Positions 2,266 through 58,500 of a DNA stretch of 64,000 nt are shown one piece after another (within the stretch, counting starts at the first letter, position 1; every line of letters begins with the position of its first letter). The notes beneath the pieces are model-generated. The model was given only the letters and a program-made list of their open reading frames with translations, was not told the origin of the DNA and made no database searches. The stretch spans positions 124,001 to 188,000 of the forward strand of contig CAIMVG010000010.1 of assembly GCA_903844845.1 (NCBI GenBank), given 5' to 3'. The position numbers and the translations under genes are program-made. The DNA comes from an uncultured Dehalococcoidia bacterium (GTDB lineage: Bacteria > Chloroflexota > Dehalococcoidia > Dehalococcoidales > UBA1222).

Positions 2266-3078
2266 TTAAGCGCCAAGTTCCTGCGCGCGGCGATAGGCCG
2301 CGGCGACGGCTTTATGGACCAACGGCGTGAACCCGCCTTCTTCGAAAACCTTCAGAGCAGCTGCGGTCGTCCCGCCCGGAGAAGTCACGTTGCGCCGCAG
2401 TTCGGCCAGGTCTTTCACCGAAGCCCTGGCGTACTCTGCGGACCCGAGCAGGGTCTGATAAACCAGCGTTTTAGCCATCTCATCGGGCATGCCGATCTCA
2501 ACTGCGGCCGACATCATCGCCTCCATGAAAAGGAAAACGTAAGCCGGCCCGGAACCGCTGACGGCGGTGGCGAGGTCGAGATATGACTCGTAGCCTGCGT
2601 AAATCCCTTTGCCCATGACCATGACTATGGCTTCGGCATTGGTTCTTTGAGCCGGGGTGACATCCCTAGTGGCCGACCAAACAGTCATCCCTTTGCCGAT
2701 CTGGGCAGGTGTATTGGGCATGGCGCGCACGACGGACTGGTGCTTAAGGCCAGCCACGAGTGTTTCCATCTTTTTACCCGCGATGATGGAAAAAACCAGA
2801 GACCTGGGGTTTAGCTTGCCCGATAATTCCTCCATCAGGGCTGTGAGCGTTTGCGGCTTCACGGAAAGGACGATTATCTCGCCGCGGTTCGCCACCTCAA
2901 GGTTATCGGTCGAAGTAAAAACTCCGAGTTCTTCTTTAAGCTGATCGAGGCGGGGCTGGCTGACGTCGCTGATAGAGACGTCTTTAGGCTCCGCAAGGTG
3001 ATTTTTTATTACAGCAGAGGCGATGGCCTGGCCCATGTTGCCTCCGCCGATGAATGATATCTTGAATATACTCAACAC
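2266..3078 (-). CDS. proC: Pyrroline-5-carboxylate reductase
   Basis: A 270-residue cytoplasmic enzyme of normal family length, catalysing the last step of proline synthesis: NAD(P)H-dependent reduction of 1-pyrroline-5-carboxylate. The N-terminus has the Rossmann pattern ISFIGGGNMGQAIA. The C-terminal dimerisation domain carries DLATAVSGSGPAYVFLF and the ending RRNVTSPGGTTAAAL, both diagnostic. It starts 19 bases after the leuS stop and precedes cvpA, in an apparent leuS-proC-cvpA operon. The first codons hold a few extra residues (MLSIFK) before the usual start, so the true start might be slightly internal. Confidence 0.95.
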   Translation of the reverse strand: MLSIFKISFIGGGNMGQAIASAVIKNHLAEPKDVSISDVSQPRLDQLKEELGVFTSTDNLEVANRGEIIVLSVKPQTLTALMEELSGKLNPRSLVFSIIAGKKMETLVAGLKHQSVVRAMPNTPAQIGKGMTVWSATRDVTPAQRTNAEAIVMVMGKGIYAGYESYLDLATAVSGSGPAYVFLFMEAMMSAAVEIGMPDEMAKTLVYQTLLGSAEYARASVKDLAELRRNVTSPGGTTAAALKVFEEGGFTPLVHKAVAAAYRRAQELGA

Positions 3079-3097
3079 AATCTCCTAAAAATCACTC

Positions 3098-5548
3098 TTA
3101 CCTGACCACGATATTAACCAGCTTGAAAGGCACGTAGATGACCTGCACGACGGCTTTCCCCTCGGTATGGGCTTTCACCTTCGGGCTTTCCTGGGCGAGA
3201 CGTTTGGCCTCGGCTTCCGTTATGTCAGCAGAAACCGTGAGCTTCTCCCGTACCTTGCCGTTAACCTGAACGATAAGCGGGATCTCCCGGTTTTCAGCCA
3301 GTTTCTCGCTCCACTCCGGCCATTTCTGATTATGGATGCTGTATTCGTATCCAAGCCTCGACCATACCTCTTCCGTAAAGTGAGGAGCGGTCGGCGCCAG
3401 CAGTCTCAGCAGCGTGCGTACTGCGCTGCGGTAATTGTCGGTGGTGACGCTGCCGGCTTCCCTGACTTTTGCTATATAGTTGGAAAATTCCATCAGGGCC
3501 GAAATCATAGTGTTAAAGCGCAAGCGGTCCATGTCCTCCGAGACGCGGCGGATGGTCTGGTGAGTCACGCGCAGCAGGTCTTCGAGGCCCGGCTCATCAT
3601 TCCCGCCGCAGCCGATGCCTTCATATGGTTCCAGCGCCAGGCCCCAGATGCGGTTCAGCCAGCGTGACAGCCCGTAGATGCCCGAGTCGTCCCAGTCGCC
3701 GCCCTGCTCCCAGGGGCCTATGAACATAAGGTACGAGCGCACCGTGTCAGCCCCGAGGTCGCCGACGTATTTATCGGGATTGACGACATTGCCCTTGGAC
3801 TTGGACATCTTCTGGTGGTCGGCAGTGATGGTGCCCTGGTTGAACAGCCGAGTGAAGGGTTCACCGAAAGTCACGAGCCCCATGTCACGCAGGGCCTTGA
3901 TAAAGAATCGGGAGTAGAAAAGGTGCATGACGGCGTGCTCGGCCCCGCCGGTGTAGATATCGACGGGCATCCACTTCTTCAGCAGTTCCGGGTCGAAAGC
4001 CCCGGCAGCGAAATGCGGGCTGGTGTACCGCAGGTAGTACCACGACGAGCACATGAAGGTGTCCATAGTATCGGTCTCGCGTTTCGCGGGGCCCCCGCAC
4101 TTCGGGCAAATAGTGTTAACGAAGCCCTCGTTGTATTTGAGGGGAGACTCTCCGGTGGGTTTGAATTCGGCATCCTCGGGAAGGAGGACGGGCAGGTCGG
4201 CTTCAGGCACGGGTACGATGCCGCAAGTCGGGCAATATATGGCAGGGATAGGCGCGCCCCAGTAGCGCTGGCGGGATATGAGCCAGTCCCGCAGCTTGTA
4301 ACTTACCGTGCGCTTGCCCCAGTCCCGTTTCTCGATGTATTCGGAAATGGCCGCCTTGGCCATGGTGTTATCCATACCGTCAAAACTTGAGGAGTTGACC
4401 AGTACACCGGGGCCGAGGAAGGCTTCTTTCAGTTCACAGCCAGCCGAGTTGTGTGAGGCCACGACTTCCTTTACAGGAAGGCCGTATTTTTTGGCAAACG
4501 CGAAATCGCGTTCGTCATGCCCGGGGACCGCCATGACGGCACCAGTACCGTAAGAGGCGAGCACATAATCGGCTATCCAGATGGGGATTTTCTCCCCGTC
4601 GAGCCGGTTAACCGCATAAGCGCCGGTGAAAACGCCGTCTTTCTCGCGTTCGGTGGAGAGACGTTCGATCTCGGTATGATGGCGCGCTTTTTCGACGTAG
4701 GCCTCGACCGCGGCTTTGCATGCGGTCGAGGTGAGTTTAGCCACCAGCGGGTGTTCCGGAGCCAGCACCATGAAAGTCACGCCGAAGACGGTATCAGGGC
4801 GTGTCGTAAAGACCTTTATCTCTTTTTCTTCGACACCCGGGTAATCCAGGGCGAAAGATATCTCGGTGCCCTCGCTGCGGCCGACCCAGTTGGCCTGCAT
4901 GGTCTTGATGCGTTCCGGCCAATCGAGGCCGTCGTGCCGCATCAATTCATCGGCATATTTGGTGATTTTGAAGAACCACTGCTCCAGGTCGCGGCGAGTC
5001 ACCGGGGTTTCGCACCGCCAGCATTCCCCGTTGACCACCTGTTCGTTGGCCAGCACGGCTTTGCACGTGGGGCACCAGTTGACCGGCGCCTTGGAACGAT
5101 ATGCCAGTCCGGCTTCCCAGAGCTTCAGGAAGAACCACTGCGTCCACTTGTAGTATTCAGGAAGGCAGGTGATGACTTCCCGGTCCCAGTCGTAGATGGC
5201 GCCGATGCTCTTAAGCTGGCGGCGCATATTGTCGATATTGGACATGGTCCAGACACGCGGATGGATACCGCGTTTGATGGCGGCGTTCTCGGCGGGAAAA
5301 CCGAAGGCGTCGAAACCCATAGGATGCAGGACGTTATAGCCCTGCATACGCTTAAAACGGGCGTAAACGTCAGACGGGCCCATGGCATACCAATGGCCTA
5401 TGTGAAGGTCCCCCGAAGTATAAGGAAGCATGGTAAGCGCATACCACTTCGGGGCGGTGCTTGCTTCATTGACTTTATAGAGCTTATCGTCGGCCCAACG
5501 TTTCTGCCATCGGGCTTCAATCTCGACTGGATTATACTTTTCAATCAT
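3098..5548 (-). CDS. leuS: Leucyl-tRNA synthetase
   Basis: An 816-residue class I aminoacyl-tRNA synthetase charging tRNA-Leu. The HIGH signature is HIGH at residues 49-52 in YTSGDLHIGH, and the second signature KMSKS is at 580-584. Between them lie a zinc-type Cys-rich insert (CPTCKAV with a later CWRC) and the CP1 editing domain with TTRPDT and GHDERD motifs. The length is normal for a bacterial LeuRS. It is first in the operon with proC and cvpA. The ATG at 5548 is preceded by GAGG at a good distance, and a promoter lies at 5584-5612. Confidence 0.97.
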   Translation of the reverse strand: MIEKYNPVEIEARWQKRWADDKLYKVNEASTAPKWYALTMLPYTSGDLHIGHWYAMGPSDVYARFKRMQGYNVLHPMGFDAFGFPAENAAIKRGIHPRVWTMSNIDNMRRQLKSIGAIYDWDREVITCLPEYYKWTQWFFLKLWEAGLAYRSKAPVNWCPTCKAVLANEQVVNGECWRCETPVTRRDLEQWFFKITKYADELMRHDGLDWPERIKTMQANWVGRSEGTEISFALDYPGVEEKEIKVFTTRPDTVFGVTFMVLAPEHPLVAKLTSTACKAAVEAYVEKARHHTEIERLSTEREKDGVFTGAYAVNRLDGEKIPIWIADYVLASYGTGAVMAVPGHDERDFAFAKKYGLPVKEVVASHNSAGCELKEAFLGPGVLVNSSSFDGMDNTMAKAAISEYIEKRDWGKRTVSYKLRDWLISRQRYWGAPIPAIYCPTCGIVPVPEADLPVLLPEDAEFKPTGESPLKYNEGFVNTICPKCGGPAKRETDTMDTFMCSSWYYLRYTSPHFAAGAFDPELLKKWMPVDIYTGGAEHAVMHLFYSRFFIKALRDMGLVTFGEPFTRLFNQGTITADHQKMSKSKGNVVNPDKYVGDLGADTVRSYLMFIGPWEQGGDWDDSGIYGLSRWLNRIWGLALEPYEGIGCGGNDEPGLEDLLRVTHQTIRRVSEDMDRLRFNTMISALMEFSNYIAKVREAGSVTTDNYRSAVRTLLRLLAPTAPHFTEEVWSRLGYEYSIHNQKWPEWSEKLAENREIPLIVQVNGKVREKLTVSADITEAEAKRLAQESPKVKAHTEGKAVVQVIYVPFKLVNIVVR

Positions 5549-38087: not shown

Positions 38088-39194
38088 TCAATCACCACTT
38101 AATGACGGTATAACCTTTCCCGATTCTAACATTGAGGACACGAAGTATTTTCTTCGGAAAAAGAGGGCCACATTCACAAGAGTGATAAGGACCGGCACCT
38201 CCACCAACGGCCCGATAACAGCCACAAATGCCTGCCCCGAACCGATACCGAAAACCGCCACTGATACGGCTATCGCCAGTTCAAAGTTGTTACTGGATGC
38301 AGTAAGTGCGATAGTCGCGGTCTTCTCGTAAGTCGCTCCGATCTTCTTCCCCATGTAGAACGATACCAGGAACATTACGACGAAATAGATGAGAAGCGGA
38401 ACTGCGATGCGTAAAACATCCAAGGGGATCTGAACGATCAGTTTGCCTTTTAGTGAGAACATCACGACGATGGTGAAGAGCAAAGCAGCCAGAGTAACCG
38501 GGCTGATCCTGGGGATGAATTTGCTCTCATACCATCCGCGCCCCTTAGTCCTCAAGAAAATGAAACGCGTGAGCATCCCGCCAAAGAAAGGGATGCCCAG
38601 ATATATAAGTACGCTTTCAGCTATTTGGCCGATTGTCACATGAACAGTTGAACCGGCCAGGCCGAACCACGTAGGCAATATCGTGATAAATATATACGCG
38701 TACACCGAGTAGAACAGTATCTGAAAAATCGAATTGAATGCCACCAGCCCCGCAGCATATTCCGTGTCCCCTTTTGCCAGTTGGTTCCAAACGATCACCA
38801 TGGCTATGCAGCGGGCAAGCCCGATCATTATCAAACCTACCATGTAATCCGGGGATGGCCAGAGGAAACCGAGAAATAATATCGCAAGAAAAAACATGAG
38901 AAGAGGACCAAGAATCCAATTCTGAATCAGAGACAACCCGAGGATGCGCCAGTCTCGAAAAACTTTGCCTAATTCTTCATACTTGACCTTCGCAAGGGGC
39001 GGGTACATCATCAATATCAGCCCAACGGCAATCGGGATGGAAGTCGTGCCAACCGACAATTGTGTGATAGCGCGGCTTACCCCGGGAATGAAGTATCCGA
39101 GACCTACGCCGATCCCCATGGCCAGGAAAATCCACAGGGTAAGAAAACGGTCGAGAAGCGGCAACCTGGACTTTTCATTCTTTCCATCAGTCAT
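38088..39194 (-). CDS. acr3: Arsenite efflux permease ACR3
   Basis: A 368-residue membrane protein with about ten helices. The conserved Cys of the ACR3 family is Cys129 in LARCIAM, and [12 protein letters not shown] is the signature of helix 9. ACR3 exports arsenite, driven by the membrane potential or proton gradient; it can work alone or with ArsA. It is divergent from arsA, and its extended -10 (TGCTATAAT at 39330-39338, minus strand) lies beside the ATGCGCAT palindrome. Confidence 0.93.
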
Positions 39195-39371: not shown

Positions 39372-41216
39372 ATGATAAAGGATTATGTTCTCCCTTCCAA
39401 GAAAGGTACCACCCGTTACCTGTTTTTTTCCGGAAAAGGCGGGGTAGGAAAGAGTACTATGAGCTGCGCTACGGCTGTGTGGCTAGCGGGCAAGGGTTAT
39501 AAAACGATGCTGGTCACCACCGACCCTGCTCCGAATCTCAGCGATATATTCGGGCAAACCATCGGACATCGGGTAACTGCTATTGAGAAGGTACCGAACC
39601 TGCATGCCATTGAAATCAACCCCGATATGGCATCCGAAGAATATCGTGAAAGAGCCATCGCGCCGGTGCGGGGTATCCTCGAGGAGAAGCAGCTCGCCGT
39701 TATCATGGAACAGATGAAAAGCCCCTGCGTCGAAGAGGTGGCGGCTTTCGACAAATTTATTGAATTCATGGATGACCCTCAATACGACGTTGTAATCTTC
39801 GATACCGCCCCGACCGGGCACACCATACGCCTACTCGAATTGCCGAGCGGTTGGGACAAGGAGATATCCAAAGGGGGTTCCACCTGCATCGGTCCCAGCG
39901 CCTCCCTGCAGGGAGCCAAACTGAAATATGAGAAGGCCGTTTCGTACCTCCAGGACACCAGCAAAACATCTTTCGTCTTCGTACTCAAAGCTGAAAATCT
40001 TTCCATACTCGAAACCGCCAGAAGCCAGAAGGAACTGGGGGCCTTGGGGATAAATATCAACCTGCTGATTATAAACGGGTTGTTCCCGGCAGAGGCCTGC
40101 ACAGATGCTTTCTTCAAGAAAAAACTGGTCGAACAGGAACACCACATGGCGATTATCGATGACCAATTCAAAGCTATCGAAAGGTTTCGCTTCCCCCTGA
40201 TGCCATCCGAACTTAATGGTTTCAAATTACTGGAAGCGGTGGGCAGCTTTCTTTACGAAAATGACGCGCGGGAGCTGCCTTCCGCAGGTTCAGTACGGCA
40301 CAAGTCTTCAGGTATTTCTATAGTATTCGACGGCGACAAGATCAATCCGCTGCTGGTCCCTGCGGCCGGTGAAAAAACCAGGTACGTCTTCTTTACCGGC
40401 AAGGGTGGTGTAGGGAAAAGCACTGTGGCCTGTATGACAGCATTGCATATGGCGGAAAAGGGATTCAAGACCCTTATATTAACTACCGACCCTGCTTCGC
40501 ACCTTGAAGCTATCTTCGGGCAGGCAGTCGGGCACGAACCCAGGTTAATCGAGGGCGAACCTAACCTTTATGCCGCTCGTATCGACCAGAAAAAGGCGCT
40601 GGATGAATATCGGGCCCGCATCCTTGCGGCTGTTAAAGACCTCGGGGATGAAGTGATTACATCGGTGACTGAAGACCTTAATTCACCCTGCGCAGAAGAG
40701 ATGGCAGCTTTCGAAAAGTTCATGGCATACCTGGTTCCGGGACCGTACCAGGTGGTGGTGTTCGATACCGCCCCTACCGGGCATACCATCAGGCTGCTTG
40801 AATTGCCGTCTGATTGGCACGGATATATAGATCTCGGGTCCCTCACGAAAAAAACATCGGACGGGACCGTCCAGGAATACGACTCGGTCATCGCATCCAT
40901 GCGCGACCCGAAAAAGAGTACTTTCGCCTTCGTTATGTATCCGGAATTCACACCTATCGTAGAAGCCTGGCGGGCATCGGAGGATCTGAAAAAACAGGTA
41001 GGGATTCACACCGGTCTGGCAGTAGTCAACATGCTTATACCGCGCGAATCCGGCGACAATGCTTTTTTCGACAGCCGGCGCAGGCAACAAGAGAAATATC
41101 TGCCGCTGCTTCAGGAAAAATTCCCTGTTCCGCTGCTGGGCATACCCCTTTTCGACCATGAACCCGAAGGCCTTAAAGATCTGGCGGCGCTGGGTCGTAA
41201 GGTCTTCAAAACATAA
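39372..41216 (+). CDS. arsA: Arsenite-stimulated ATPase ArsA, double-domain
   Basis: A 614-residue protein formed of two homologous ATPase halves, each with a deviant P-loop FSGKGGVGKST / FTGKGGVGKST (starting near residues 21 and 343) and the signal-transduction motif DTAPTGHTIRLLELP. Metal-site cysteines are visible as KSPCVEE, STCIGPS and NSPCAEE, matching the three arsenite-binding cysteines of plasmid ArsA. It binds the cytoplasmic face of the arsenite permease, here ACR3 rather than ArsB, and is charged by ArsD (45558). Good ribosome binding site (AGGAG). Confidence 0.95.
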   Translation: MIKDYVLPSKKGTTRYLFFSGKGGVGKSTMSCATAVWLAGKGYKTMLVTTDPAPNLSDIFGQTIGHRVTAIEKVPNLHAIEINPDMASEEYRERAIAPVRGILEEKQLAVIMEQMKSPCVEEVAAFDKFIEFMDDPQYDVVIFDTAPTGHTIRLLELPSGWDKEISKGGSTCIGPSASLQGAKLKYEKAVSYLQDTSKTSFVFVLKAENLSILETARSQKELGALGININLLIINGLFPAEACTDAFFKKKLVEQEHHMAIIDDQFKAIERFRFPLMPSELNGFKLLEAVGSFLYENDARELPSAGSVRHKSSGISIVFDGDKINPLLVPAAGEKTRYVFFTGKGGVGKSTVACMTALHMAEKGFKTLILTTDPASHLEAIFGQAVGHEPRLIEGEPNLYAARIDQKKALDEYRARILAAVKDLGDEVITSVTEDLNSPCAEEMAAFEKFMAYLVPGPYQVVVFDTAPTGHTIRLLELPSDWHGYIDLGSLTKKTSDGTVQEYDSVIASMRDPKKSTFAFVMYPEFTPIVEAWRASEDLKKQVGIHTGLAVVNMLIPRESGDNAFFDSRRRQQEKYLPLLQEKFPVPLLGIPLFDHEPEGLKDLAALGRKVFKT

Positions 41217-41365: not shown

Positions 41366-41494
41366 ATGAAAAAAATCGAGGCTTCTTTCTCGAAAGTATT
41401 TCAGACCGAATTGGAACACATCTCAAAGCGCCGCTTGGCAGACATTTGTCTCACTCCAAGCTGCGACAAGGCAAGAGCGCGATGCAGAAACTAG
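41366..41494 (+). CDS. Possible 42-residue leader peptide before fabG-like gene
   Basis: An ATG frame behind GGGGA encodes a basic 42-residue peptide with three cysteines in its last 15 residues (CLTPSC ... RC). Its end overlaps the start of the reductase gene (ATG at 41482), as expected for a translationally coupled leader. No homologue is recognised. It could equally be an untranslated leader. Confidence 0.3.
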   Translation: MKKIEASFSKVFQTELEHISKRRLADICLTPSCDKARARCRN

Positions 41495-42198
41495 CTTTTG
41501 TTACCGGCGGAAACGGCGGGATCGGGACCGCTATTGTAGAGCGCCTGTTAAAAGACGACTACTTAGTGGCATACACATATTTCGAGCACGAAGCGGACCC
41601 GACCGGCATCTTAAAAAGATATCCCTGCGCTGCTTCATACCACTGCAACCTGCTGGACCTGGAAGAAGTCGATGCCTTAACCGACACCATCCTTGCCAAA
41701 TACCAAGTGGTTGACGTTCTCGTCAACAACGCAGGCGTGATGCGGGACCAGGTTTTTATCAAGATGGAGCGCGATCAGTGGGACCATGTCATGGATGTGA
41801 ACCTGAAATCGATTTTCAATTTTTCGCACGCATTCCTCCCTGGGATGATCAAGCAAAAATCCGGGCGTATCATCAATATCTCGTCTATCACCGGCCTCAA
41901 GGGGTTTGGGGGCAAAGCCAATTATTCGGCTTCCAAAGCGGGGATCATCGGATTCACTCGCTCGCTGGCAGTGGAAGTGGCATCCAGGGGGATTACAGTC
42001 AATGCCATAACCGCCGGAATGATTGATACTAAAATGATCCAAAGTATACCCGAAAAATCGATGGCATCCATACTGGATGCTATCCCTGCGCACCGTTTGG
42101 GCAAACCGGAAGAAGTCGCGTCGCTGGTGGCATTTCTGGCGGGAGAAGAAAGCGCCTACGTTACCGGCGAAGCCATTTCCATCAGCGGTGGATATTAA
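41482..42198 (+). CDS. Short-chain reductase, FabG-like (3-oxoacyl-ACP reductase)
   Basis: A 238-residue SDR enzyme: cofactor loop TGGNGGIG at 8-15, NNAGVM, catalytic Ser in NISSITG and the YSASK pair, C-terminal VTGEAISISGGY. It resembles FabG and acetoacetyl-CoA reductases. Given lipB and lipA directly downstream, a role in supplying octanoyl-ACP for lipoate synthesis is plausible but inferred. The start at 41482 (MQKLAFVTGG) fits the family; an upstream ATG at 41446 would add 12 residues. Confidence 0.85.
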   Translation: MQKLAFVTGGNGGIGTAIVERLLKDDYLVAYTYFEHEADPTGILKRYPCAASYHCNLLDLEEVDALTDTILAKYQVVDVLVNNAGVMRDQVFIKMERDQWDHVMDVNLKSIFNFSHAFLPGMIKQKSGRIINISSITGLKGFGGKANYSASKAGIIGFTRSLAVEVASRGITVNAITAGMIDTKMIQSIPEKSMASILDAIPAHRLGKPEEVASLVAFLAGEESAYVTGEAISISGGY

Positions 42199-42204
42199 AA
42201 CAAA

Positions 42205-42924
42205 ATGGTGGATGAAATATTGAGCAGATGCGGTCTTTGCCGGCTTGGGCGGATTGCCTATCCGGAAGCTGCAGCTTTACAGCAAAAACTGGTAACCGCC
42301 CGATTCGATGGCAGAATCGGCGATATTTTGCTGGTGCTGGAACATCCCCCAACGATCACCTTGGGGAAATTTGCGAAGGTTGAAAATATACTTCTCCCTC
42401 CCGAAGTTTTGGCAACCAGAGGAATCGGCATTTATACCTCAAACCGGGGAGGCGATGTGACGTTTCATTGCCCCGGCCAACTTCTGATACACCCGGTTAT
42501 GGATTTAAAAAGAAAACCAGGGGGATTGCGAGGATTCATAACCAACCTGGAGGAGGTGGCCCTCAGGGTGCTTTGGGGTTATGATATCCCGGCTGAAAGA
42601 TGGTCGGAACACCCGGGCTTATGGGTGAAAGGCAAACAGATAGGTGCGCTCGGCTTGCACTTCAGTCATGGTATCAGCGAACATGGCCTCTCTTTGAATG
42701 TGGATCCGGATCTCCTCTCATTCGAAGTGATCAATTTATGCGGGATGCCCGGCAAAGTCCCTGCCAGTATTGCAAGCGAACTCGGGGAAAATATTACCAT
42801 GACGGAAGTCGAGGAAAAGGTCATTCGATCCTTTTCCGAAGTGTTTAGTGTAGAAGTTGAACCTATTTCAAGAGAAAATTTGGAAGGAGCGTGCAGTGAG
42901 CCAGAGGCTGCCCGAATGGTTTAA
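42205..42924 (+). CDS. lipB: Octanoyl-ACP:protein octanoyltransferase, copy 1
   Basis: A 239-residue LipB: it moves octanoyl from ACP to the target lysine of lipoyl domains. The pattern HPPTITLGKF, RGGDVTFHCPGQL, catalytic Lys144 in GKQIGALGL, HGLSLNV and catalytic Cys179 in INLCGMPG are all present. It starts six bases after the fabG-like stop and overlaps lipA. A second, similar lipB lies at 47563-48258. The first 15 residues include an extra CGLC not typical of the family. Confidence 0.93.
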   Translation: MVDEILSRCGLCRLGRIAYPEAAALQQKLVTARFDGRIGDILLVLEHPPTITLGKFAKVENILLPPEVLATRGIGIYTSNRGGDVTFHCPGQLLIHPVMDLKRKPGGLRGFITNLEEVALRVLWGYDIPAERWSEHPGLWVKGKQIGALGLHFSHGISEHGLSLNVDPDLLSFEVINLCGMPGKVPASIASELGENITMTEVEEKVIRSFSEVFSVEVEPISRENLEGACSEPEAARMV

Positions 42925-43786
42925 GCAAAAGTTGCCGCGAGCCGGTGAGACCAGCCATGTTGAACGGCTGCTTTCGCAACTGAAGCTGCACACTGTATGT
43001 GAAGGAGCGCATTGCCCGAATATCGGCCAATGTTTTTCAAACGGTACGGCCACATTCATGATTATGGGTGAAGTTTGCACCCGTAACTGCACATTCTGCG
43101 CTGTAAAGAAGGGTTTTCCGCCGGCTCTCGACCCCGACGAACCGCTTCGTGTGACAGAAGCGGTCAGCCAACTCGGTTTGAAGTACGTAGTAATCACATG
43201 CGTTACCCGTGACGATCTTCCAGACGGGGGCGCAGCACATTTTTCAGCCACTATACACTCGCTTCATGACAAAATGCCTGAACTTAAAGTCGAGGTGCTT
43301 GTTTCGGACATGAAGGGCAACCCTGCATCGGTAAACACGGTCGTAGCGGCGGGCCCGGACGTTTTTTCACATAATCTGGAAACCGTGCCCCGATTGTATG
43401 CGGGGGTCAGGCCTATGGCGGGTTACCTGCGTTCTCTGGACGTGCTCAGAATGGCTAAGGAATGCGACCCGCTCATCGTTACCAAATCTGGTTTGATGCT
43501 GGGTTTAGGCGAGACCAGGGATGAGGTTATCGAGGTTATGCGCGACCTGAGGCTTACGGGTTGCGACCTCTTATCACTGGGACAGTACCTTGCACCGTCA
43601 TCCGAACACCACCCCGTGATTACTTTCGTGACTCCGGCGGAATTTGCTGAGTACGAGCAGATAGGCTTGCAGGAAGGATTCAAAGGCGTGGCATCCGCTC
43701 CCCTTGTTAGAAGTTCTTTCAGGGCCTCCGAATTATACGAACGCGTAAAAAAACCCTTGTCCACGACATCTATTAACATGCAGTAA
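42896..43786 (+). CDS. lipA: Lipoyl synthase
   Basis: A 296-residue radical SAM enzyme inserting two sulfurs into protein-bound octanoyl groups. The auxiliary cluster ligands are Cys35, 40, 46 (CEGAHCPNIGQC), the SAM-cluster ligands Cys61, 65, 68 (CTRNCTFC), and the C-terminal RSS motif is in LVRSSFRA. The GTG at 42896 is preferred because AAGGAG precedes it; it overlaps lipB by 29 bases. A longer frame from 42857 lies inside lipB. Together with LipB it completes de novo lipoylation. Confidence 0.95.
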   Translation: MSQRLPEWFKQKLPRAGETSHVERLLSQLKLHTVCEGAHCPNIGQCFSNGTATFMIMGEVCTRNCTFCAVKKGFPPALDPDEPLRVTEAVSQLGLKYVVITCVTRDDLPDGGAAHFSATIHSLHDKMPELKVEVLVSDMKGNPASVNTVVAAGPDVFSHNLETVPRLYAGVRPMAGYLRSLDVLRMAKECDPLIVTKSGLMLGLGETRDEVIEVMRDLRLTGCDLLSLGQYLAPSSEHHPVITFVTPAEFAEYEQIGLQEGFKGVASAPLVRSSFRASELYERVKKPLSTTSINMQ

Positions 43787-43804: not shown

Positions 43805-44620
43805 ATGTCAGAGAATAAAGAAAAACAAAATCCCCGGAAAAGAAATACATTTCGTGTTATAACCTTTTCCAGGCGGCAGTTCTTAAAGCACGCTGCAGTA
43901 GCAGCAGCGGGAGTGGCAATTGCCTCTTTGCCTGCCGCTTGTAAATCGTCCGGCACCTCCCAAAAAGCGACCGCTGAAACCACGCCGCCCGGAACCACGG
44001 TTATAACCTCGACCTCCCCATCATCCATTGCGACCTCAACTACTCCAACCTCGAGTGCGCCCGTTCCCACCTCAACAACTCCGACTTCGAGTACGCCCGT
44101 TCCAACCTCCACGACTCCCCTAACCAGTACGGTCACTTCGAGTACACCTCCCGCCAACGGTTATAATTACATACCTTCGACAGTCACACCACCGTTGAAG
44201 CCCGTACCCGGGACAACCTGTGTGGTTGCCACCGACAGGTCTTATTCACAGGACCACATATGGGTTCTACCTCTGCCTAACAATGTAGCAGTTATGGGAA
44301 TCAGCTCTACTATGGTCGAAATCCTCACTGAACCACATAAAATATCTTTGTCGCCAGTCGGAACAATACTTTCGAAAGGTGATATGTTCGGTTCCATAGA
44401 AGGGTTCAAAATGGCTTCCGATTTATTGACGCCCATCACAGGTGCGGTCATCGAAGTTGACAGTTGGGTATTGGCACAGTCGAGCGAACAGGGGGTGATC
44501 GCTCAAATTAATGATGACCCTTATCGAACCGGGTGGCTCACTGTCGTTCAACTTAGCAAGCCTGCGGAATTGAGCACATTGCTCACATCCCAACAGTACA
44601 TTAATCTCCTGGCTAAATAA
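43805..44620 (+). CDS. Tat-exported lipoprotein with GcvH-like lipoyl domain, copy 1
   Basis: A 271-residue protein. A twin-arginine signal (FSRRQFLK at 21-28) and hydrophobic core end at the lipobox LPAAC (Cys46). A Ser/Thr/Pro linker fills about 50-120. From about 140 the sequence follows glycine cleavage H protein: YSQDHIWV, the lipoyl-lysine hairpin IEGFKMASDLLTPITG (Lys202), and NDDPYRTGWLTVV. It should be octanoylated and thiolated by the adjacent LipB/LipA in the cytoplasm, folded, exported by Tat and membrane-anchored. A Cys (139) precedes the domain. No GcvP or GcvT is nearby, so a glycine cleavage role is unlikely. Confidence 0.85.
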   Translation: MSENKEKQNPRKRNTFRVITFSRRQFLKHAAVAAAGVAIASLPAACKSSGTSQKATAETTPPGTTVITSTSPSSIATSTTPTSSAPVPTSTTPTSSTPVPTSTTPLTSTVTSSTPPANGYNYIPSTVTPPLKPVPGTTCVVATDRSYSQDHIWVLPLPNNVAVMGISSTMVEILTEPHKISLSPVGTILSKGDMFGSIEGFKMASDLLTPITGAVIEVDSWVLAQSSEQGVIAQINDDPYRTGWLTVVQLSKPAELSTLLTSQQYINLLAK

Positions 44621-44683
44621 CCCCGGGGATAAATTCTAGATTAGAGTAGGGATGGGGTAAAGGTTTAAATCGGGAGGAATAGC

Positions 44684-45445
44684 ATGTCGGACGAATTAAG
44701 AAATAGTAGCGGAGAAATCTCCAGAAGGAATTTTCTAAAAGACACCGGTATTATCCTCGGAGGAGTAACACTGGCATCACTCGGAATCAATTCCGCGTGC
44801 AGCCCTACAACAACCTCAACCACGACAAAGGCATCCGAAACGACCTCACCAGAGATGACCGCTTCTCAACAACCCGTTACCATCCCAACCTCCGAGGCTA
44901 CGACACAATCCCCCTCCATTACCACTACCGCGGCATCAACCTCCGCCACGATTAGCGCGACCCCTACTATCCCGGCCTATTCGTATACCCCTCCAAGCGT
45001 TTTACCGCCGCTTATAACAGTTACCGGCACCGCCTGTGTTGTTGCGACGGACCGGGTTTATTCTGCCGACCATGTATGGGTCAAAACGATATCGACGGCA
45101 ACCGGCATAGCCGTACTCGGAATCACCACAACTCTGGACGAAATACTCTTTGAACCGTTCAAGATTTCATTGCCAAAAGTTGGCTTTAAAATGACCGCTG
45201 GAGATAGCTTCGGAACGATTGAAGGATACAAAATGAGTGCCGACCTGTTAACCCCGGTCTCGGGAACCGTTCTCCAAATAAACGATTTTTTAAACTCTCT
45301 GGTTATTCAGGGCACAGTTCTGGAACCCGTAATTAATGACCCCTATAACAGCGGATGGATGCTCGTGATCCAGTTGACAAGGACTTCCGAACTCAACAGT
45401 CTTCTGACGGCACAGGCATACAGGGAACTTGTGGCCCATAATTAG
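44684..45445 (+). CDS. Tat-exported lipoprotein with GcvH-like lipoyl domain, copy 2
   Basis: A 253-residue paralogue of the preceding gene. Tat signal ISRRNFLK, lipobox INSAC (Cys39), Ser/Thr-rich linker to about residue 95, then the H-protein-like domain: YSADHVWV, IEGYKMSADLLTPVSG with lipoyl-type Lys183, NDPYNSGWMLVI. The pre-domain Cys118 in GTACVVATDR is conserved between the copies, whereas the linkers are not, so both the Cys and the lipoyl lysine appear selected. Ribosome binding site GGGAGG. It lies 63 bases after copy 1. Confidence 0.85.
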   Translation: MSDELRNSSGEISRRNFLKDTGIILGGVTLASLGINSACSPTTTSTTTKASETTSPEMTASQQPVTIPTSEATTQSPSITTTAASTSATISATPTIPAYSYTPPSVLPPLITVTGTACVVATDRVYSADHVWVKTISTATGIAVLGITTTLDEILFEPFKISLPKVGFKMTAGDSFGTIEGYKMSADLLTPVSGTVLQINDFLNSLVIQGTVLEPVINDPYNSGWMLVIQLTRTSELNSLLTAQAYRELVAHN

Positions 45446-45557: not shown

Positions 45558-45872
45558 ATGATTCATAAAAAGCTGGCAATCTTTGAAGGCACCATGTGCT
45601 GCGAATCCGGTGTATGCGGCGTGGAACCGAATATGACGCTGGTCGAATTCAATGAAACCCTGAAGAAATTGAAAAAAGACTTCCCGGAGTTGACAATTCA
45701 ACGGGCAAATATGTCATACAATCTTGAAGTATTCGTAAAGAACCCGGATATTTTGAAAATTGTCAGGGAAAAAGGGCTGGACACATTACCTATAATGAGT
45801 ATCGACGGAAACATCTTCTCGAATACAAAATACCCGAAATACGAAGAACTAAAACAAGCCCTCGAGACCTGA
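45558..45872 (+). CDS. arsD: Arsenic metallochaperone ArsD
   Basis: A 104-residue thioredoxin-fold protein with the arsenite-binding triad Cys14, Cys15, Cys20 in MCCESGVCG, exactly the ArsD signature. ArsD hands As(III) or Sb(III) to ArsA and is a weak repressor in some operons. It is separated from arsA by the lipoate module yet carries the same promoter palindrome. A GAGG site precedes its ATG. Confidence 0.92.
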   Translation: MIHKKLAIFEGTMCCESGVCGVEPNMTLVEFNETLKKLKKDFPELTIQRANMSYNLEVFVKNPDILKIVREKGLDTLPIMSIDGNIFSNTKYPKYEELKQALET

Positions 45873-46070: not shown

Positions 46071-46612
46071 ATGAGTGATAAAAAAGCCCCCGAGACGGGT
46101 GAGATCAAAGCAAACCCCAACCCGCCCGAGGGCCATGAAGTACCGGTCGTTCCCTGGCCCGCATGGAAAACGGTGGTTTTGATCGCGATCGCCCTGTGTC
46201 AATCGGCCTGGTCACGAATTCAACCATCAGGTTCAACGCCAACCAAAAGAACCCGTCCGTAACGCAAAAACCGCCACCGACATATACCGGAACAGCCCCC
46301 CTTGCCATCACAAGCATCTCAGAAGCATGGAACTCCAATAATGACTTCGTCATGGTCTTTACTCCCTCCAGCGACACCGCGATTAACACTTCCATCCTGA
46401 ATTTGACGGTGCAGGCGGCTGCAAAAATACGGTCTACCGACGGAATTTATGTCGGCGTATTCACCTTGCCGGCAAACACCTCTCTTACGTACCCGACACT
46501 CACCATCAGGCTGTTCAACACTTCATCAAGCCTTCAGTTCACGATGAGGGCAGATATAACGGCAGATTCGATATATAACGCGTACCTCGATCGCAAATTC
46601 CTCAGGGGCTAA
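46071..46612 (+). pseudogene. Small single-pass membrane protein, frameshifted
   Basis: Frame 1 (ATG at 46071 behind GGAAGGAG) gives a Pro-rich cytoplasmic start and WPAWKTVVLIAIAL, the first half of a membrane helix. The reading then continues in a second frame from about 46190: SIGLVTNSTIRFNANQ and an extracytoplasmic domain of about 130 residues ending at 46612. One added base near 46190-46200 restores a 180-residue protein with one membrane helix. No family is recognised. Either the gene is broken or the sequence has a one-base error. It lies 18 bases before the CcdA-like gene. Confidence 0.6.
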
Positions 46613-46630: not shown

Positions 46631-47365
46631 ATGGATGCATGGATTCAATCAGTCCTGAAAGGTCAAACATTCGGATTTTTGGCGCTGGTAGCTGCCTTTC
46701 TTTTCGGGTTATCATCAGCCGCTACTACCGCCGGCTGCGGCGGACTTCCCGCCATGCTGGTGATTCTTGGCTACACGGGGTCCAGCAAGGTTAATAAAAA
46801 ACGACAATTGCTTATGGCGGCTGGAGCATTCACACTTTCATCTGTTGTAGCACTGGGCGCTCTTGGTGCCATAGTCAGTTACGCCGGAGTGAACATCATG
46901 GCAACGGAGGGCGTACTCGGTTTTTGGGTGAAAAAACTCCTTGGGTTAGTAGCGCTGCTTATCGGCCTTTCAGCTCTTGACTGGCTGCCGCTACGCTTCC
47001 CCACTTTTAAGGTATCTACCGATAAACTCCCTGGCGGGACTCTGGGGGCTCTGTTCCTGGGAGCTACCGTCGGCCTCGCGACCGCCGGATGCGCTGCCGC
47101 GTGCTCTCCTTTGCAGCTTCCCATCGTACTGGGTCTGGCTGCGCTGCGCGGCCAGGTACTTCAGGGTACCATCATCCTCATTATCTTCGCCATCGGATTC
47201 GTGGCTCCCCTCGTCGCAATAATGCTGGGCTTAGGCATGGGCAGGGCGACACACTTGATGGAAAAAATGGACAAACCGCTTCGCTATGTTTCAGGATTTT
47301 TCCTCCTCCTACTCGGTTTCTGGCTCTTGGCACAGATAAAAACTGGGAGCATAACCGGCTTTTAG
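46631..47365 (+). CDS. CcdA/DsbD-like transmembrane thiol-electron transporter
   Basis: A 244-residue membrane protein with six helices in two similar halves. Each half opens with a Gly/Cys-rich membrane segment: TAGCGGLP (Cys36) and TAGCAAACSPLQLP (Cys154, Cys158). This is the layout of CcdA and the DsbD core, which carry reducing power from cytoplasmic thioredoxin to exported thiol proteins. In this location the obvious clients are the two exported lipoyl proteins; apocytochromes from the ccm pathway are an alternative. Well-placed ribosome site and strong terminator. Confidence 0.8.
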   Translation: MDAWIQSVLKGQTFGFLALVAAFLFGLSSAATTAGCGGLPAMLVILGYTGSSKVNKKRQLLMAAGAFTLSSVVALGALGAIVSYAGVNIMATEGVLGFWVKKLLGLVALLIGLSALDWLPLRFPTFKVSTDKLPGGTLGALFLGATVGLATAGCAAACSPLQLPIVLGLAALRGQVLQGTIILIIFAIGFVAPLVAIMLGLGMGRATHLMEKMDKPLRYVSGFFLLLLGFWLLAQIKTGSITGF

Positions 47366-47562: not shown

Positions 47563-48258
47563 ATGGAAGTCCACCAGCCGCCAGCCTACCTGTACTCCAA
47601 CCTCGGCCTGATTCCTTTTCTGGACGCGATGGAATTGGAGCACAAGCTGACCAAACTCATATCTGATGAAAAATCCCATGACGTTCTGTTAATCCTCCAA
47701 CATCCCCCGACTGTTACGATGGGAAAATTTGGCAAACCGGAAAATGTATTAATCCCTCTATCCGAGCTGGGGGAAAAAGGCATCGCTTATTACGATTCGG
47801 ACCGCGGAGGAGATGCGACATTCAATTGCCCGGGGCAGATTATCGTTCACCCGATAATCAATCTCAAACACAGGGGAGCCAAAACTTACATCGCAGACCT
47901 GAACCTTATGGAATCCAGCGTACTTTCAAGCTACGGGGTAGAAGCCGATAAATTAGCCCAGCACCCGGGTATCTGGGTGAATGGAAAACAAATCGGAGCT
48001 GTGGGTTTACGAGTCAGCCACGGAATCAGTATGCATGGACTCTCACTCAATGTTAACCCCGATCTTTCAAATTTCAAGGTTATCAATCTCTGCGGCCTGC
48101 CAGGTAAAACAGCTACTTCCATCGAAGCTGAAATAGGACACACGGTTCCGATAGAAGAAGTTACACAAAGACTGATTCTTGCGTTCAGTGAGGTCTTCAA
48201 AGTTTCACTTTCGGAGATTTCCGTTGAACAACTTCGGGCTTTGTGCTCTATCTGCTGA
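47563..48258 (+). CDS. lipB: Octanoyltransferase, copy 2
   Basis: A 231-residue LipB paralogue of 42205-42924, with the same motifs: HPPTVTMGKF, RGGDATFNCPGQI, catalytic Lys142 in GKQIGAVGL, HGLSLNV and catalytic Cys177 in INLCGLPG. It stands after the terminator of the CcdA-like gene and has no visible promoter or strong ribosome site in the 150-base gap. Two catalytically intact copies in one cluster suggest separate targets or dosage. Confidence 0.92.
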   Translation: MEVHQPPAYLYSNLGLIPFLDAMELEHKLTKLISDEKSHDVLLILQHPPTVTMGKFGKPENVLIPLSELGEKGIAYYDSDRGGDATFNCPGQIIVHPIINLKHRGAKTYIADLNLMESSVLSSYGVEADKLAQHPGIWVNGKQIGAVGLRVSHGISMHGLSLNVNPDLSNFKVINLCGLPGKTATSIEAEIGHTVPIEEVTQRLILAFSEVFKVSLSEISVEQLRALCSIC

Positions 48259-55264: not shown

Positions 55265-55287
55265 CGTAAGAAGAAAGAAAAAGACTC

Positions 55288-55402
55288 CTGGCAATGGCAT
55301 ATTTTCCGCAGGGAGTTGCCCCCCCAGTATCGTCTGCGCTAAGGCGTTTCACTACCGTGTTCGGGATGGGAACGGGTGGTGCCACCTCGCTCTAATCACC
55401 AG
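55288..55402 (-). rRNA. rrf: 5S ribosomal RNA
   Basis: About 115 bases with the conserved 5S core (GGTGGCACCACCCGTTCCCA on the minus strand, then CCGAACACGG). The ends pair as CTGGTG with the 3' TTGCCAG. It follows 23S by about 118 bases. Ends are approximate. Confidence 0.93.
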
Positions 55403-55500
55403 AAGACTCTTTCACTGTTAAGCCTGATTGTCTAATATTCAGTTTTTAAATAACTCTCACTTATTATACTCCATGGGAGTCTATTAAGCGATAGTAGTTG

Positions 55501-58500
<3,000 letters not shown>

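Follow-up and report, generated by a model that had tools for sequence, protein, structure and literature searches.

Putative exported lipoyl carriers with a conserved extra cysteine in arsenic operons of Dehalococcoidales

The cofactor lipoate is known from the cytoplasm and from mitochondria, and arsenic is the classic poison of the proteins that carry it. The H-protein fold is also used outside glycine cleavage: LbpA of sHdr sulfur oxidation shows two conserved cysteines, one N-terminal and one C-terminal, both absent from GcvH (PMC6067878). In Caenorhabditis elegans, Cys78 of DBT-1, a cysteine near the lipoyl lysine, alters the arsenic response (PMC6453569). As for arsenic operons, the ArsEFG system for roxarsone and nitarsone has been described (Chen, Zhang and Rosen 2019, as cited in PMC9144182). 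In the open-access literature we found no published exported lipoyl carrier and no lipoyl protein in an ars operon or associated with Tat. Here we analysed a stretch of 64,000 nucleotides (the window) from an uncultured Dehalococcoidia bacterium, and judging from its sequence and that of its relatives, it appears that in a narrow group of anaerobic bacteria arsenic-resistance operons encode proteins that receive lipoic acid in the cell and are then exported and tethered to the outside of the membrane.

Two lipoprotein genes stand in tandem in the window. The first (P0001; 43805..44620, +) encodes 271 aa with a Tat signal (RRQFLK, Arg23-24), a lipobox (Cys46), a Thr/Ser/Pro linker and a GcvH-fold domain, while the second (P0002; 44684..45445, +) encodes 253 aa with a Tat-like signal (RRNFLK), a lipobox (Cys39), a linker and the same type of domain. 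Both ORFs were thus found as the preliminary description had them, namely as paralogues with differing signal peptides and linkers. P0001 scores 26.4 bits against TIGR01409 (cut-off 16.7) and passes the Pfam cut-offs of both TAT_signal and GCV_H; P0002 reaches 75.1 bits with GCV_H (cut-off 22.2), and its twin arginine was read by eye, with no match to the Tat models of Pfam or NCBIfam. The genome has three TatC genes, so that twin-arginine motif, lipobox and Tat machinery are all present, by model for P0001 and by motif only for P0002. The shared motif GT(T/A)CVVATDR and the lysine hairpin EG(F/Y)KM, both reported earlier, can be read directly in the two ORFs. Cys139 of P0001 (TGT, 44219..44221, +; GTTCVVATDR) lies between predicted strands 131-133 and 140-142, and Cys118 of P0002 (TGT, 45035..45037, +) lies in GTACVVATDR; the putative lipoylation sites are Lys202 in EGFKM (44408..44410, +) and Lys183 in EGYKM (45230..45232, +). 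Apart from the lipobox residues, Cys139 and Cys118 are the sole cysteines of the mature proteins. A fresh tandem duplication was ruled out for the pair, because P0002 groups with a protein of another locus, L006 (95/88, 94/87).

Arsenic genes and lipoate genes flank the pair on both sides. Upstream are a divergent ACR3 arsenite efflux transporter (38088..39194, -; TIGR00832, 443 bits, cut-off 282.8), the tandem ATPase ArsA (39372..41216, +; NF041417, 901 bits, cut-off 800), a FabG-like short-chain dehydrogenase (41446..42198, +, with a start that may be 41488; Pfam adh_short_C2 and several FabG models), the octanoyltransferase LipB (42205..42924, +; TIGR00214, 141 bits, cut-off 83.55) and the lipoyl synthase LipA (42857..43786, +; TIGR00510, 358 bits, above the cut-off). 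Downstream are the metallochaperone ArsD (45558..45872, +; NF033727, 96.1 bits, cut-off 90), an ArsF-like membrane-anchored thioredoxin-fold protein (46163..46612, +), an ArsG/CcdA-like membrane protein (46631..47365, +; Pfam DsbD_TM above cut-off) and a second LipB (47563..48258, +; TIGR00214, 139 bits). No ArsE thioredoxin-like protein was seen at this locus. The ArsA scores 901 bits with a haloarchaeal model and 479.5 bits, below the cut-off, with the bacterial arsen_driv_ArsA, hinting at an unusual origin. Further along, 55286-58480 (-) holds 23S and 5S rRNA, with no 16S rRNA within the window.

The ArsF-like gene is broken relative to its relatives: it is split over two frames (46071-46612), with the N-terminal helix in another frame from about 46071, and TPSSD stands in place of TPC, so that its cysteine is lost. 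These changes may reflect either a genuine mutation or a fault in the assembly. The protein has no match to the curated ArsF model; its AlphaFold pLDDT is about 83-92 over residues 41-120, and Foldseek matches it to PDI/thioredoxin (best E 2.8e-4). The ArsG-like protein reaches 41.7 bits with NF040495, under the ArsG cut-off of 200. Its cysteines in TM1 (TTAGCGG) and the TM4 region (GCAAACSP) are kept in an ArsG alignment across both operon types described below, a pairing that we take to be the CcdA pattern.

The genome's only detected lipA and both of its lipB genes sit inside this one arsenic cluster. In the same genome, which is 97.9% complete, GcvP (PF02347) was not found and no 2-oxoacid dehydrogenase E2 core was detected. 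GCV_H has eight matches there, including the two window proteins. L001 is a cytoplasmic GcvH-like protein adjoining an Lpd-like gene, and L008 is the biotinyl-type domain of another enzyme. L005, L006 and L007 are three additional exported paralogues, all with G-T-[TA]-C-x-V-A-T-D-R, and the paralogues away from ars genes likewise keep the cysteine. L002 is an exported homologue without the lipoyl lysine (GEDTM), the cysteine or the twin arginines, a joint loss which is suggestive, with n = 1. This GcvH-like lipoprotein (contig C11, L002 1471-2232, -) has a Cys-rich C-terminal tail, QCCPPCHCNN.

To find relatives, we searched the class, the order and the phylum with profiles and scanned public genomes. 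It turned out that the exported set comprises 22 proteins at 20 loci in 13 genomes of one order, with a median pairwise identity of 36%. In these searches the exported form is confined to its own order, and the named records are Dehalococcoidales/Dehalococcoidia MAGs. At E 1e-27, searching the phylum brought up no exported form from beyond the order, a public-genome scan with a tight alignment gave only ordinary H proteins beyond Dehalococcoidales, and a genome-contig scan with P0001 alone as query gave no relatives. Plasmid searches returned ordinary gcvH only, save one LbpA-like protein, and a PHROGs search gave no match. In trees built with the Cys segment left out, the 22 exported proteins form one side of a branch (support 100/99) and the tree among them has a total length of 17.05 substitutions per site. 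At L094 of genome G468 (2019-2810 and 2870-3664), two exported lipoyl lipoproteins also stand in tandem, as an independent pair whose members are mutually closest (98/93).

A cysteine precedes [VTI]A-x-D-R in all 22 exported proteins, and the lipoyl lysine is present in all of them as well, so that the residue proposed as fixed is indeed kept throughout this set. The motif first given for it has the form C-x-VATDR, which holds within the window's own genus (six proteins), whereas the remainder outside the genus show C-x3-[VTI]A, in the form C-x3-VAxDR. These two registers are two residues apart, a shift that would keep the same face of an extended strand. Other cysteines make up 0.34% of residues in the exported domains, which gives a chance of about 2% for one Cys per 7-residue window in a single protein; as 22 of 22 keep it over a tree some 17 substitutions per site long, the conservation in these alignments is evidently above chance. 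In most exported members it is the single Cys of the domain and the only mature thiol besides the lipobox Cys. Ordinary cytoplasmic GcvH is without this extra Cys: among cytoplasmic-type H proteins from the same set of loci, only 2 of 46 have a Cys within 14 residues before the Tyr, and these sit elsewhere, two residues before the Tyr. Two additional rows that looked non-Tat (L046 and L063) belong to exported forms truncated where the contig stops.

The AlphaFold model of P0001, built with 14 sequences, has block-mean pLDDT values mostly of 89-97 from residue 121 (two lower blocks, 80 and 89), with low confidence in the signal and linker. Foldseek gave H-proteins as PDB matches (1onl, 3a7a, 3klr, 1htp; TMt 0.86-0.91). 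The preliminary description had set the cysteine beside the lipoyl arm, and in the model the Cys139 segment belongs, with high confidence, to the ordered domain. The lipoyl arm of the E. coli H-protein has its docking site at Glu12, His13 and Glu14 (PMC7733448). These correspond to D150-H151-I152 of P0001, and since they follow the Cys by 11-13 residues, contact between Cys and arm is plausible by analogy. None of the 22 exported proteins has Glu at the position equivalent to Glu14, where I, V, T or M stands instead.

Generally, the arsenic operons with an exported lipoprotein are of two types. Type A, as in the window, has ArsD, ArsA, ArsF-like and ArsG-like proteins, the lipoyl lipoprotein and usually LipB and LipA, with ArsR in addition in the relatives. 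Type B has ArsR, an ArsP_1 permease (PF03773, 272.8 bits, cut-off 32.3), an ArsE-type thioredoxin (TIGR00412, 98.9 bits in relatives, cut-off 62), an ArsF-like protein, ArsG, the lipoprotein and mostly LipB and LipA. For instance, at L048 the ArsG scores 251.8 bits, over the curated cut-off of 200, and the ArsF-like protein 27.9 bits, under the curated cut-off of 60. Read by eye, LipA adjoins the lipoprotein at 13 of the 20 loci; four genomes have two lipA genes, and one of them lies beside the lipoprotein in each. The CcdA-like protein had been suggested as docking partner of the cysteine. It is a real and recurrent neighbour, of ArsG type at 14 of 20 loci by eye (one of them a fragment at a contig end), but its docking is indistinguishable from other thiol roles by sequence. 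The other six loci have no ArsG-type neighbour on the sequence read; three of these are in the window's own genome, and the genome's ArsG could act on them in trans. Related families have the ArsR-ArsP-ArsE-ArsF-ArsG operon with neither lipoprotein nor LipA/LipB, accompanied by ACR3 in L124, L126 and L131 among the loci read. Since they keep the type B operon without it, the lipoyl module looks like an add-on, one that would have joined both ArsEFG-type and ArsAD-type arsenic operons.

Other genes also recur around exported lipoyl genes. A membrane-anchored protein of about 200 residues with one or two CPxCxGxG-type motifs is found at L038 (9475-10083), L039 (9886-10485), L042 (15831-16394), L043 (18305-18916) and L045 (388-1011), with no Pfam family above cut-off. 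A protein of 420-438 residues is found at L042 (9808-11124), L043 (6770-8047) and L046 (5978-7240), the L042 copy having no Pfam match. Besides, the lipoyl loci L042, L043, L091 and L099 adjoin genes for an HgdB/BcrAD-type ATP-dependent reductase and a polyferredoxin-like membrane protein, and some of them are also near Se/S-carrier, TusA-like or Sulf_transp genes.

We propose that these proteins are exported, tethered lipoyl carriers of arsenic operons, whose arm and cysteine would serve arsenic handling or reduction together with ArsG; to this account in full we give even chances. LipB and LipA require cytoplasmic substrates and Tat exports folded proteins, so a lipoylated, exported and tethered arm is the simplest reading. 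The domain would fold and be lipoylated by LipB and LipA in the cytoplasm, then leave through Tat with its cofactor in place; outside, the lipobox Cys would anchor it through the Thr/Pro linker to the cytoplasmic membrane's outer face. The arm would then be a swinging dithiol outside the membrane, reduced through the ArsG/CcdA-like membrane protein, its likely electron source, and it would handle trivalent arsenicals or electrons for arsenical reduction. The invariant cysteine would be a third thiol, which forms a mixed disulfide with the arm or a partner or completes a three-thiolate site. A role as partner of the arm is favoured for it because it is strictly conserved, usually the sole mature thiol, and lost jointly with the lysine in L002. 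Sequence does not discriminate between a mixed disulfide, a three-thiol site and docking to ArsG. Several observations weigh against the proposal: the window's ArsG lies far under the ArsG cut-off, its ArsF-like gene carries a frameshift and no longer encodes the Cys, six loci have no ArsG-type neighbour, selenium or sulfur genes lie near some loci, and a Cys in an LbpA-like protein from a sulfur/Hdr setting suggests that the residue may serve general lipoyl sulfur chemistry.

The arm might instead be a pure electron relay, in which ArsG, by forming a mixed disulfide with the Cys, reduces the arm, and the electrons go on to an acceptor outside the cytoplasm, for example the ArsF-like protein, with no arsenic bound. 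A single Cys suits a mixed disulfide, and ArsG with its CcdA-type cysteine pair, thioredoxin-like ArsE and ArsF-like proteins would be apt partners. However, both the window and L090 lack the Cys of the ArsF-like protein while retaining that of the lipoprotein, which is kept at loci without ArsG as well. We consider this reading somewhat unlikely.

Methylarsenite, the substrate for which ArsP-type permeases are known, takes two thiols. This bears on the arsenite site that the preliminary description had offered, where two lipoyl sulfurs and the Cys would form an AsS3 trap that takes As(III) outside the membrane or from the exporter. The cysteine of that proposal stands, fixed and ordered; its arsenic specificity is not favoured. 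ArsA, ArsD, ACR3 or ArsP are indeed neighbours, Cys and Lys are strictly conserved, and one Cys would add exactly one thiolate, but exported paralogues without ars neighbours retain the Cys and the ArsP-type substrate would need only two thiols. Moreover, the Cys of MSEYNGCELPEDLFYDLDYVWV, an Acidithiobacillus LbpA-like protein beside an Hdr-related gene, aligns with Cys139, so the residue is not an arsenic-binding signature. The analogous proposal for DBT-1, direct three-thiol binding, was doubted by its own authors on distance (about 32 A in the crystal; PMC6453569). A dedicated arsenite trap thus seems improbable to us.

That alignment, with the conserved N-terminal Cys of LbpA (absent from GcvH; PMC6067878) and the TusA-like, Se/S-carrier and Sulf_transp genes near some loci, would fit a sulfur or selenium carrier, with sulfane sulfur or selenium borne on the arm and the Cys and with the arsenic genes as co-regulated neighbours. 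Yet MSEYNGCELPEDLFYDLDYVWV falls outside the exported clade, with the cytoplasmic forms, in a tree that has one long-branched LbpA-like sequence; the exported proteins have no fixed C-terminal Cys, they have export signals, their maturation would be by LipB/LipA and not of LplA type, and no hdr-like genes were seen by eye in the ORF lists of about 20 loci. We regard such a carrier as very doubtful. A purely structural or dimer-forming Cys with no part in lipoyl chemistry, which its being the only mature Cys besides the lipobox in most members and its two-residue shift between lineages would allow, is highly improbable, given that it is lost along with the lysine in L002 (n = 1) and that a stable surface disulfide would be less likely in these relatives, which are obligate anaerobes.

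If the exported-carrier proposal is true, the lipoyl carriers of this lineage's arsenic operons turn arsenic's target into a tool, a dithiol carrier outside the membrane. The proposal would also supply a concrete candidate partner for ArsG, which has no established mechanism. Cys139/Cys118 would be a single mutable residue for probing what a third thiol does for a lipoyl arm, at a site backed by strict conservation, unlike Cys78 of DBT-1. With slightly less than even confidence, we also see here a previously undescribed extracytoplasmic lipoate-dependent system, in which dithiol and Cys would work with ArsG and lipoate would be a cofactor of periplasmic detoxification.

In comparison with known systems, the window proteins share with GcvH (PF01597, TIGR00527) the fold, the lipoyl lysine hairpin and the docking-face motif Y-x-x-[DE]-[HN]-x-W, but they are exported Tat lipoproteins with a long linker and the extra Cys, the cavity residue Glu14 is replaced by I/V/T/M, the genome has no GcvP that we could find, and at 63.8 and 71.1 bits they stay under the gcvH equivalog cut-off (115.85). 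With LbpA they share an H-protein fold used outside glycine cleavage, dedicated lipoylation genes nearby (PMC6067878) and a conserved N-terminal Cys, aligned with Cys139 in one LbpA-like protein; LbpA differs in its C-terminal Cys, Hdr partners and LplA-like ligases. GcvH-L (TIGR03077; Streptococcus pyogenes 5a35) is likewise an H-like carrier outside glycine cleavage, but the window proteins score 54.3 and 44.9 bits against its cut-off of 144, and no sirtuin/macrodomain neighbours were seen. As for ArsEFG with an ArsP-type permease, the relatives' operons pass the ArsG, ArsE and ArsP_1 cut-offs, with ArsF weak; they differ in the added exported lipoyl lipoprotein, LipB and LipA, and in the window ArsA-ArsD are present while the ArsG is no more than a distant one. 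Because defining features of GcvH and of LbpA were tested and not found, we class the window proteins with neither, but as H-protein-type lipoyl carriers with an ArsEFG-like module.
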